48,416 nt of DNA from Gallionellales bacterium RIFCSPLOWO2_02_FULL_59_110 (lineage in GTDB: Bacteria > Pseudomonadota > Gammaproteobacteria > Burkholderiales > Gallionellaceae). The position numbers and the translations under genes were made by a program. The number at the start of each line of letters is the position of its first letter. Position 1 is the stretch's first letter. Positions 29,759-32,506 of the stretch are shown piece after piece. Where the stretch lies: contig MGXA01000096.1 in NCBI GenBank assembly GCA_001801215.1, positions 1-48,416 on the forward strand, written 5' to 3'. Below the pieces are notes generated by a model, which saw only the letters and a list, made by a program, of their open reading frames with translations, made no database searches and was not told where the DNA came from.

Positions 29759-31024
29759 TTAAATCAGTCCCTTCCCATTGCGCGCGAATGGATACTTCAC
29801 TACCTTCGCCGCCAGCATTTTATCGCGGATCGCCACCTGCACCTCGTCGCCGGTTTGCACTTCCTTGGGCACGCGCGCCAGCGCGATCGACTGGTTCAGG
29901 GTGGGCGAGAAGCTGCCGCTGGTGATCTCGCCTTCGCCGTGCGCGGTGTGCACCTTCTGGTGACCGCGCAGCACGCCGCGATCCAGCAGCACCAGCCCGA
30001 CCAGCTTGCGCGCCGGGGGATTGGCGAGCAGTGCTGCCTTGCCGATGAAGTCGCGTTCGCTCTTCAGATCCACCGTCCATGCGAGGCCGGATTCCAGCGG
30101 ATTCACGCTCTCATCCATGTCCTGGCCGTAGAGGTTCATGCCGGCCTCGAGGCGCAAGGTGTCGCGCGCGCCCAGGCCGCACGGTTCGACACCCTTGTCC
30201 GCCAGCGACTTCCAGAAATACGGCGCAGCAATGGAGGGGAGCACCACCTCGAAACCGTCCTCGCCGGTATAGCCGGTGCGCGCGATGAACATCGTGCCCA
30301 TCACCACGGCGCTGAAAGGGGCGAGGTTTTCGGTTAGCAGCTTGCTGCCGGGCATCGCTTCCCACAGCTTCTCACGGGCATGCGGTCCCTGAATCGCGAT
30401 GATCGACAGCTCGGGGTGGTCGGCGATGTCCAGCGGCGGCTTTTCCGTCCCTTCCTCGTCCTGTTCTTTCCAGATGAGCTTCGCCGCCTCTTCCTGGCTC
30501 ATGTCGCCGAACAGGTAGGCGTTCGGCACTCTTTTGATTTCTTCTTCCGGAGGGACGGCTTCCGCCGAAACTTCGCCTTCCGCGCCACCTTCGCTCTTTG
30601 CGTAGCATTCGGGATGCGCCTTCGCGTGTTCGGCGGCCTGCCGCCTCATCCACGCGATATCCTTGTCGGCGGTGCCCGCGTTCACCACGATGCGGAACCA
30701 CTGCTCTTCCATGAAATACACGATCAGGTCGTCGATCACCCCGCCGTTTTCCAGCAGCATGCAGGAATACAGCGCCTTGCCCGGCGTGGTGAGCTTGTCC
30801 ACGTTGTTCGCCAGCAGGTAGCGCAGGAAGTCGCGCACGCCCTTGCCCTTGATGTCCACCACGCGCATGTGCGACACGTCGAACATACCGCAATCGTTGC
30901 GCACCTGATGGTGTTCGTCGATCTGCGAACCGTAGTTCACCGGCATGTCCCAGCCGCCGAAATCGACCATCTTTGCGTCCATCGCGCGGTGCGCTTCGTT
31001 CAGCGAGGTTTGTTTTAATGTCAT
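29759..31024 (-). CDS. gcvT: Aminomethyltransferase (glycine cleavage T protein) with acidic insertion
   Basis: Transfers the aminomethyl carbon to tetrahydrofolate. 421 residues against about 360 for ordinary GcvT. Family blocks are [14 protein letters not shown] near 19, MFDVSHM near 47, [12 protein letters not shown] and [11 protein letters not shown]. The extra length is one segment at about residues 135-203, rich in Glu and Ala ([19 protein letters not shown] and [13 protein letters not shown]), inserted before IIAIQGPHA. Start ATG 31024, downstream of the riboswitch and its terminator. Confidence 0.95.
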
Positions 31025-31042: not shown

Positions 31043-31074
31043 AAAAAAGGCGCAGCGCAAAATTGCGCTGCGCC
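31043..31074 (-). terminator. Intrinsic terminator of the glycine riboswitch
   Basis: On the minus strand: GGCGCAGCGCAA, short loop, TTGCGCTGCGCC, then six T. It begins right after the closing strand of aptamer II P1 (CAGATGGGG) and ends 19 bases before the gcvT ATG. It is probably the expression platform, giving read-through when glycine is bound. Confidence 0.9.
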
Positions 31075-31075
31075 C

Positions 31076-31390
31076 CATCTGTCCTTGGTACCTGAGAGAT
31101 TGCAACTCGCGTCGCGTGCCCCTTCGGTGGTCAACTGCACCTCTCTCTCCTACCCTCTGATGAAACAACTAGCCATTCGACTAAGCTGTCCAACTTCGCC
31201 AGCTAAGTCGCTGGTTATCCCGCAAGCGGGCGAGGGAGCAAAGGTTCGCTACGCGAATTTCAGTGCGACGACGCTCTCCAGATTTGCCTGTCCCCACGGT
31301 TCCTTGTGCCTGAGCGGTTGCGGGTGTTGCGCCTTCGGCGGTGCTCCAGTCCGTGTAACGGTGCTGGGCGACACGCTCTCCCATAGGTCT
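31076..31390 (-). ncRNA. Tandem glycine riboswitch, second aptamer enlarged by an insertion
   Basis: Aptamer I (~31390-31286) has GGGAGAGCG, GCCGAAGGCGCAAC, ACCGCTCAGGCACAAGGA and GGGGACAGG. Aptamer II (~31284-31076) opens with ATCTGGAGAG and closes with CAGGTACCAAGGACAGAT; the P1 strands ATCTG and CAGAT pair exactly. Its glycine-site core CCACCGAAGGGGCA and AATCTCTCAGG is intact. Aptamer II is about 209 nt instead of roughly 90-100, because a repeat element occupies the variable P3 arm (GTC...GCAC on one side, GTGC...GAC on the other). Upstream of gcvT, glycine is expected to switch expression on. Confidence 0.92.
31143..31240 (+). repeat. 96-bp-class dispersed repeat inside riboswitch aptamer II
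   Basis: About 98 bp, ending CTCCTACCCTC on one side and GAGGGAGCA on the other. It shares the near-identical blocks AACTAGCCATTCG and AAGTCGCTGGTTATCCC with the copy in prmC (31945-32040), in opposite orientation. Found within the P3 arm, outside the ligand-binding core. Confidence 0.85.
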
Positions 31391-31404
31391 GAACGGCAGG
31401 GCGA

Positions 31405-31441: not shown

Positions 31442-32392
31442 TCAGCAAGCCCGCCCGCCGCTTACCCTCTCGATGCCCGCCAGGTCGCGCGCCGAAAACA
31501 CCTCGGCGTATCCCGCCGCACCGAGCAGTTCGTGCGCGCGCTCGGCCTGGTCGTAGCCATGCTCGAACAGCAGCCAGCCACCAGGATTGAGATGCTCCTT
31601 TGAATCCACGACGATGCGGCGGATGTCGTCCAGCCCGTCCGCGCCAGAAGCCAGTGCGGCGCGCGGCTCGAAGCGCAGGTCGCCCTGCGCGAGATGCGCG
31701 TCGCCGTTGGCGATATACGGCGGATTGGAGACGATCAGGTCGAAACGCTCGCCCGCCAGCGCGGAGAACCAGTCGCTGCGCAGCAGGCGCGCGTTGCCGA
31801 TATTCAAGCGCCGCGCATTTTCCCGCGCCACTTCCAATGCGTCCGGCGATGCATCCAGCGCCGTCACCTCGATATCCGGCCGCATGTGGGCGATGGAGAG
31901 CGCGATCGCGCCGCTGCCGGTGCCGAGGTCGAGTATGCGGAACTTTCTCCCTCTCCCCGTGGGATAACCAGCGACTTGGGCATTGTTTTTCGATGGCCTA
32001 GCCGAATGGCTAGTTGTTCCATTAGAGGGTGGTGGTGAGGAAAATTCTTTGGAGATGCGCTGCAACGCCAGTTCCACCAGCAACTCCGTATCGGGGCGCG
32101 GGATCAGCGTCGCGGGCGTCACTCTGAACGTCAGCCCGTAAAATTCGCGTTCGCCGAGGATGTAGGCCAGCGGCTCGCCCGCGAGGCGGCGCTGCAACAG
32201 CGCGCGGTAGGTTGCGGCCTGTGCTTCGCCCAACACCTGCTCGGGATGCGCCAGCAGATATGTGCGCGAAACGTCCAGCGCCTGCTGCAAAAGCATCTGC
32301 GCTTCGATGCGTGCCGTGCCGGAATCCAGTCCGAGGGAAGTTTCCAGCGCGGCTTTGTCCTGCGTCAGGATGGATTGGATAGGGCGCGGCAT
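31442..32392 (-). CDS. prmC: Peptide chain release factor N5-glutamine methyltransferase
   Basis: Methylates the GGQ glutamine of RF1/RF2. 316 residues. N-terminal helical domain, then the SAM site ILDLGTGSGAIALS and the catalytic NPPY in IVSNPPYIANGD. Residues ~118-149 (FSSPPPSNGTTSHSARPSK and following) are encoded by an inserted repeat of 96 bp, a multiple of three, and sit just before the first strand of the SAM domain. Both catalytic blocks are intact, so the protein may still work. Start ATG 32392 is chosen (MPRPIQSILTQDK); the frame opens further to 32449. Confidence 0.93.
   Translation of the reverse strand: MPRPIQSILTQDKAALETSLGLDSGTARIEAQMLLQQALDVSRTYLLAHPEQVLGEAQAATYRALLQRRLAGEPLAYILGEREFYGLTFRVTPATLIPRPDTELLVELALQRISKEFSSPPPSNGTTSHSARPSKNNAQVAGYPTGRGRKFRILDLGTGSGAIALSIAHMRPDIEVTALDASPDALEVARENARRLNIGNARLLRSDWFSALAGERFDLIVSNPPYIANGDAHLAQGDLRFEPRAALASGADGLDDIRRIVVDSKEHLNPGGWLLFEHGYDQAERAHELLGAAGYAEVFSARDLAGIERVSGGRAC
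31945..32040 (-). repeat. 96-bp dispersed repeat inserted in frame in prmC
   Basis: On the plus strand the arms are CTCCCTCTCCCCG and GAGGGTGGTGGTGAGG. Inside is a perfect hairpin CTAGCCGAATGGCTAG. It aligns along its length with 31143-31240. The shared blocks GGGATAACCAGCGACTT and CGAATGGCTAGTTGTT are identical. Adds 32 residues to PrmC. Confidence 0.85.
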
Positions 32393-32506
32393 TTTGCAGG
32401 CGTGGGTGGGGCGGTTGTTAAAAGAAACCGGGCTGCCCGCTGGAAGCAACCCCGAAAAGGATTGTGTTGCTCGTACGCCCGCGAGGTTTCTTGCGCAATT
32501 TCGTGT

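Follow-up and report, generated by a model that had tools for sequence, protein, structure and literature searches.

Can a folded, ligand-sensing RNA take up a dispersed repeat within one of its helices and still sense its ligand? This question is raised by the gcvT leader of a Gallionella-type bacterium, encoded on the minus strand of the 48,416-nt stretch of DNA analysed here as a whole (the window). The leader is a tandem glycine riboswitch with two aptamers, both of which carry the GGAGAG, CCGAAGG and CUCAGG core letters and closing P1 strands, as letters only, the pairing being predicted. As expected of RF00504, the glycine riboswitch model of Rfam, it lies upstream of glycine cleavage genes, the gcvT start being at 31024. 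RF00504 matched aptamer I in full and bore out aptamer II only in part, with a match of 28.5 bits over 31150-31081 that was obtained at a permissive threshold and falls below the gathering score. When the whole genome was searched with strict filters, the only match was aptamer I of this leader. An earlier note on this DNA had described the P1 strands (ATCTG and CAGAT) and the core of aptamer II as intact, and their letters are indeed unchanged. The terminator that it called normal has arms (31074-31063 and 31060-31049) that are 100% complementary and followed by a T-run. The estimate of about twice the usual length for aptamer II was too low, since its 207 nt compare with 79 nt in the relative G020, a ratio of about 2.6.

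The arm that carries the insert is P2. It had been named P3 in the earlier note; in the Rfam order P2 is the first internal hairpin, and the P3 helix (CCGAAGG with CTCAGG) is untouched. The five pairs of P2 all vary on both sides in a set of 16 relatives that lack an insert (15 distinct), with 98.7% of the cells paired, and these both-side changes identify P2 as a real helix of the genus. The strands said to be able to close below the insert are still present in the lower arm, of P2 and not of P3.

What fills the arm in the window is a nested pair of repeats (Table 1). The outer repeat, R1, is a REP-like palindrome of the CCCTC-GGGAG type with a small hairpin in front, and it is split by R0, an element of 60 nt. 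The repeat previously placed at 31143-31240 corresponds to the R1 palindrome plus R0, but the foreign stretch is longer, is nested and includes the hairpin at 31257-31245. Its description as a dispersed repeat held: the insert occurs at 41 places in its own genome, itself included, and the next-best copy is 89% identical over query positions 44-154 (E 3.9e-35), far beyond chance. Aligned insert copies form a sharply bounded unit with differing flanks. For R0, 38 sites were parsed, of which 37 are distinct, and 32 of these 37 measure exactly 60 nt; its consensus folds into one hairpin of -26.8 kcal/mol, and several of the stem pairs (18-32 and 20-30, for example) have changed on both sides. The insert was also considered as a known RNA family and rejected as such: at gathering, the window gives no Rfam match except glycine aptamer I, and as for the sub-threshold matches to sbrA, ncS54, STnc40, mir-7147 and suhB, those that were aligned fall on the terminator.

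Table 1. Features of the riboswitch locus and of the neighbouring R0 copy (window coordinates).
Feature	Position	Strand	Remark
gcvT (aminomethyltransferase), intact, downstream of the riboswitch	29759..31024	-	Pfam GCV_T 2e-76, GCV_T_C 4.5e-19
Intrinsic terminator hairpin and U-run	31043..31074	-	12-nt arms, then TTTTTT
Aptamer II	31077..31283	-	207 nt, insert in P2; P1 and core anchors placed
P1 3' strand CAGAU (DNA CAGAT)	31077..31081	-	invariant in 16 insert-free relatives
P3 3' strand and core AAUCUCUCAGG (AATCTCTCAGG)	31091..31101	-	found in 34/34 parsed genus leaders, as the reading pattern demands
P3 5' strand and core CACCGAAGGGGCA	31117..31129	-	found in 34/34 parsed genus leaders, as the reading pattern demands
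Lower P2 arm, 3' side GUGCAGUUGAC	31130..31140	-	placed by anchors
R1 palindrome, 3' arm	31140..31158	-	contains decoy GGAGAG at 31150-31145
R0, 60-nt element nested in R1	31159..31218	-	matched 40 times in its genome
R1 REP-like palindrome, 5' arm CUCCCUCGCCCGCUUGCGGG	31219..31238	-	
Small hairpin UUCGCGUAGCGAA, 5' end of R1	31245..31257	-	like layout in P2 inserts of G008, G017, L119
Lower P2 arm, 5' side CGUCGUCGCAC	31263..31273	-	P2 helix covaries in relatives
P1 5' strand AUCUG (the true one; DNA ATCTG)	31279..31283	-	invariant in 16 insert-free relatives
Aptamer I, without large insert	31287..31393	-	Rfam RF00504 47.9 bits, gathering 32, model 1-94
prmC (release factor methyltransferase) ORF with R0	31442..32449	-	Pfam PrmC_N and MTS
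Second R0 copy, in frame in prmC	31964..32023	+	minus-strand reading NGTTSHSARPSKNNAQVAGY

The relatives place the two repeats in order. R1 without R0 is the P2 filling in L119, G008 and G017, and R1 is dispersed in the genomes of G008 and G017. Within the clade of the window (support 100/98), G020 and G026 carry the short arm, an insert-free version of the kind that the earlier note had in mind; P2 measures 37 nt in G018, and R1 stands alone in L119. The same note had allowed for an arm of unrelated, variable sequence in relatives; the arm does vary, being either short or occupied by other repeats. The simplest order of events on these sequences would be entry of R1 into P2, followed by entry of R0 into R1. 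The record of L119 (MEPP01000008.1) is titled Bdellovibrionales; its gcvT is 88% identical to that of the window and its riboswitch is of the Gallionella type, and it is probably mis-binned or mislabelled.

The window insert has counterparts throughout much of the genus. We compared 34 leaders with a complete aptamer II, namely the window and 33 genus relatives; G034, near a contig end, was unparsed, and G003 and G033 gave no riboswitch match. Since leaders were found through a riboswitch match, this survey is biased against broken leaders, and since the reading pattern demands an intact aptamer II core, the invariance of the core carries no weight as independent evidence. A large insert lies in aptamer II in 15 of the 34 leaders, in P2 in six and in P3b in nine, and the other 19 are without one. 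P2 of aptamer II measures 83-144 nt in the window genome (G000), G008, G015, G016, G017 and G024, and 15-17 nt otherwise, except for 37 nt in G018 and 29 nt in G032. P3b of aptamer II measures 43-158 nt in G001, G002, G005, G009, G010, G011, G027, G028 and G032, and 14-21 nt in the others. The extra length carried by these two arms is roughly 28-143 bases. In aptamer I, P3b is 8 nt long in all 32 parsed leaders and P2 ranges from 14 to 52 nt, the survey covering its length; P2 is 36 nt in G007 and 31 nt in G031, as read by another pattern, and no aptamer I arm exceeds 52 nt in the 34 leaders.

Thirteen of the 15 inserts were tied to four dispersed repeat families, 12 of them firmly and one (G028) weakly. 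The match counts that follow include the riboswitch copy, and many matches are partial, those of R3 mostly so. The R1/R0 set occurs in G000, G008 and G017, the R1 insert having 31 genome matches in G008 and 21 in G017. R2, built of long inverted arms with TTAGTC units, has 25 matches in G015, 8 in G024 and 3 in G016, the last being the riboswitch and one other locus counted on both strands. R3, of the GTCATTCCCGC type, has 49 matches in G010, 29 in G001, 7 in G009 and 6 each in G028 and G032; its tie to the G028 insert extends over 26 nt (E 5e-4). R4 has 4 matches in G005 and 1 in G011, where the riboswitch copy is the sole match in the genome. The inserts of G002 and G027 were assigned to none of the four families. 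Pairwise local alignment scores among R0, R1, R2, R3 and R4 are low (11-18).

These states were mapped on a weakly supported tree of gcvT and gcvH with 42 rows, in which 12 of the 39 inner branches are starred. The tree omits L111, L116, L118 and L123 (the same sequences as G008, G017, G024 and G016), G014 and G034 (contig ends) and the non-Gallionella matches of a pattern scan; altered terminators form their own state. A tree that included gcvPA was set aside, since it mixed different gcvP versions. Near gcvT/gcvH, some relatives (L129-L160) carry a different gcvP, with 31-42% identity to the gcvPA of the window over the aligned part. In the clade of the window GcvT itself is longer, at 420-423 aa, and contains an internal stretch that varies; most other rows have 357-387 aa. 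On this tree, sister leaders differ in what they carry: R2 in G016 and R1 in G017, in the same P2 arm (100/99); R4 in P3b of G011 and R2 in P2 of G015 (100/99); no insert in G023 and R2 in L126 (99/98). The fewest changes needed are 23 over all states and 9 for presence or absence alone. R2 lies in P2 in forward orientation in G015, L112, L115, L126 and L128 and in reverse orientation in G016, G024 and L124, L125 being ambiguous. With other genomic R2 copies taken from G015, G024, G016 and G000, the nearest relative of the G015 riboswitch copy is another copy in its own genome. The P2 copies of L112, L115 and L126 are mutually nearest, as are those of G016, G024 and L124, which means that some R2 inserts may be inherited, as old shared insertions. 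Counting each family and orientation once (R1, R0, R2 forward, R2 reverse, R3 and R4), there were at least six insertions. As read from the aligned leaders, these results show that four repeat families entered P2 or P3b of aptamer II several times independently, in aptamers whose cores read as intact.

A pattern scan of named genomes, sorted by eye, gave 18 stretches. Twelve of these have R1 or R2 in P2, four being the same as G008, G017, G024 and G016; the rest are riboswitches with a long P2 (L113, L127 and L121) and stretches with no riboswitch context (L114, L120 and L122). The records with R1 or R2 in P2 include ones titled Gallionella, Sideroxydans and Ferriphaselus sp. R-1, the last with an R2 insert and not marked as MAG; we take this strain to be an isolate. 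L111 and L116, whose records bear the title Gallionella sp., have the same leaders as G008 and G017, and L125 has R2 in P2 plus R3 in P3b. In another family of the order, G040 (L106) bears an insert of about 150 nt in P3b of aptamer II, with an R4 match of 74.7% over 87 nt, and the pattern of arm inserts may reach beyond this family. An order-wide survey of 200 genomes, 107 of them matching, gave no match above 148 nt among the stronger matches listed; expanded aptamers lie among the weaker ones. In G052 (L109), also of another family, P2 of aptamer I contains repeated units (GCATAGCCAAAACCGCTATG), an indication that aptamer I arms can expand elsewhere. A general softness of riboswitches was considered as well and rejected: a TPP search gave 30 matches of 91-115 nt, spread over 29 of the 31 genus genomes, though strongly expanded ones could escape it.

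The leader is not always spared outside the two arms. In G006 (L075) and G021 (L090), the terminator 3' of aptamer II has changed: its U-run, its usual loop and a portion of its 3' arm are not seen, and the sequence found there is weakly R4-like (12-14 nt). In G012 (L081), G019 (L088), G022 (L091) and G024 (L093), an extra stretch of about 80-150 nt follows the terminator, ahead of the gcvT start codon.

Taken together, these results make it probable that R1 and then R0 hit P2 of aptamer II, that inserts in these arms are tolerated and that the riboswitch, as predicted from its sequence, still senses glycine. In such a course of events, a REP-like palindrome would enter the P2 hairpin and the 60-nt hairpin element would then enter the palindrome. 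Being self-folding, the repeats would merely lengthen a peripheral helix, glycine sensing being retained, and inserts outside the P2 and P3b arms would be removed by selection. Inserts in P2 and P3b would be tolerated because the tips of these arms presumably point away from the binding pockets. From conservation we infer that the RNAs of the genus would still be functional.

An alternative is that the insert broke aptamer II in the window: the decoy GGAGAG would compete with the true strand, and the leader would be decaying, with gcvT relying on aptamer I alone or unregulated. Folding bears on this reading. Using ViennaRNA, we computed how much free energy it costs to force P1 and P3 to form in 42 leaders (34 of the genus and 8 named). 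In the 19 leaders without a large insert the cost is 4.27-7.97 kcal/mol, at most 5.28 in 18 of them, the highest value being that of the insert-free G036. The nine leaders with P3b inserts cost 4.58-6.42 kcal/mol, and in all nine only 0-7% of 60 shuffles do as well; P3b inserts fold nearly as cheaply as no insert. The fourteen leaders with P2 inserts cost 4.28-8.39 kcal/mol, the fraction of shuffles at or below the natural value being 0.03-0.78, and in these 14 cases the natural inserts have no clear advantage in insulation over shuffled ones. The window leader has the highest cost of the 42, 8.39 kcal/mol, with a shuffle fraction of 0.73, and is thus no better than its shuffled inserts. A genus covariance model built from 16 insert-free relatives points the same way: it reads straight through the 83-nt P2 of G008 with 79.7 bits, and in the window it scores 58.0 bits, starting at the decoy (31150-31145) in preference to the true 5' strand and with non-standard P1 pairs. 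The Rfam score below threshold also fits a broken aptamer. However, decay should touch the conserved P1, the core letters and the terminator, and all of these are unchanged; moreover, the decoy is without a P1 strand. The folding costs themselves are weak evidence, since ViennaRNA is blind to the tertiary fold and also misses the native fold of the insert-free G020, and the insert-free G036 costs 7.97 kcal/mol. We therefore regard a broken aptamer II as unlikely, while noting that the model results support tolerance for the genus and leave the window species as the weakest case.

It is likewise doubtful that the repeats simply target hairpin-forming DNA, the arms (and terminators) being hit as palindromes with selection playing a minor part. 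The inserts do sit in hairpin arms, R0 is often nested in other repeats and two terminators are also altered. Against this, the flanks of 36 R0 sites pair over 7.7 pairs compared to 6.9 at random places of the same loci (P about 0.20, a test of R0 only), and the P2 hairpins of aptamer I carry no insert beyond 52 nt in 34 leaders. Targeting of hairpin apices by R0 in particular looked attractive from the aligned copies and was rejected, being unsupported by the junction-palindrome test.

There is little to suggest that the long arms are adaptive, an extended P2 or P3b tuning folding kinetics or aptamer cooperativity. The high frequency of inserts (15/34) and the presence of different repeats in sister species would fit such a role, but arms, lengths and families all differ between sister species and 19 of the 34 leaders do without a large insert, which a passenger explains more simply than adaptation. 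An assembly artefact, a repeat contig joined into the leader of a draft genome, is very improbable: the window genome (G000) is in 112 contigs, related named records are mostly marked MAG and repeats do cause mis-joins, but many assemblies made separately have inserts of this kind, among them Ferriphaselus sp. R-1 and few-contig genomes such as G009, and the P2 arm and the core run on exactly on either side of the insert.

Returning to tolerated entry of repeats into aptamer II, published structures bear on which parts of the RNA are free. According to the part of PMC12060979 available, the P3 loop of aptamer I has adenines that dock into P1 of aptamer II, and P2 is variable, which fits the unvarying P3b of aptamer I and a free P2 of aptamer II. 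In the cryo-EM data of the same part, adenines of aptamer II P3 contact P1 of aptamer I, and the tip of P3b may therefore not be wholly free. For Bacillaceae, the available part of PMC6944388 states that aptamer 1 seems more conserved than aptamer 2 in gcv contexts; 'insertion', 'repeat' and 'P3b' have no occurrences in that text. On balance, we lean towards the view that, in Gallionella-type bacteria, palindromic repeats of unrelated families land time and again in P2 and P3b of aptamer II, in effect a natural insertion scan, and that R0 is a dual-use passenger, tolerated in RNA as an arm extension and in conserved enzymes as a peptide of 20 residues. Provided that the RNAs work, a tandem riboswitch has been put through an insertion scan by evolution, one that marks its free parts, and the leaders are ready-made natural variants for effects of arm length on folding, cooperativity and termination. 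Repeats in intergenic DNA and within protein genes are already known; a literature search found no case in which different repeat families had repeatedly entered defined arms of an RNA that senses a ligand.

The locus resembles RF00504 riboswitches upstream of gcvT in its tandem aptamers, conserved core, terminator and downstream gcvT, and differs from them in the roughly 118 nt of nested dispersed repeats that P2 of aptamer II bears in the window and in the other repeats found in P2 or P3b of relatives. The elements themselves recall REPs and the GTAG- and CGTC-tagged repeats in being short, many-copy palindromes that also occur in coding regions, an occurrence noted in the available part of PMC3733652, where 'riboswitch' is absent. 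By eye, R3, which starts with TCGTCATTCCCGCG, looks like the CGTC-tagged type, whereas R0 has neither GTAG nor CGTC at its ends and its flanks show no clear target duplication. R0 was also considered as a REP mobilised by a RAYT; a search for the Y1 transposase in the genome gave one weak PF01797 match (23.6 bits, cut-off 23). Short repeats also occur in loops of cyanobacterial RNase P RNA, where a peripheral loop of a structured RNA likewise accepts repeats; here, by contrast, the host is a ligand-sensing riboswitch and several repeat families occupy the same two arms. MITEs and BOX elements with riboswitch-like motifs (PMC10969869, available part) are similar as small mobile elements linked to a riboswitch, but in that proposal the regulator is formed by the element, whereas here elements enter an existing one.

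The repeats are abundant genomic passengers and not part of the riboswitch, and R0 is also found in frame in conserved proteins. A second copy lies in the window itself, in prmC, where the protein has 35 extra residues (query 135-169) relative to E. coli HemK, between HemK residues 108 and 111. PrmC of G018, G020, G021 and G026 is without R0, and in G016 R0 lies close by in PrmC, in another reading frame. Most R0 copies have three open frames, and in 12 of the 38 parsed copies the open frame extends at least 100 codons on both sides. Ten R0-bearing ORFs were scanned with Pfam and five proteins compared with PDB sequences. Homology on both sides of R0 was found by PDB alignment for CysS, RlmN, GpsA and PrmC, whose homologues are without R0, and by Pfam domains for PolA, MutL, a lipoyl/E3-binding protein and an HD protein; for L003, L010 and L013 the Pfam match is confined to one side, and L004 and L011 stand outside the homologue comparison. 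R0 thereby shows the marks of Rickettsia palindromic elements (RPE), a palindromic fold and in-frame insertion where homologues lack it. Likened by description in the available part of PMC10969869, RPEs are also palindromes in frame in unrelated conserved genes; R0 differs in its length of 60 nt and not about 150, its Gallionella-type host and its additional presence in a riboswitch arm. R0 was present in 21 of the 23 genomes tested, including all 19 of the genus.
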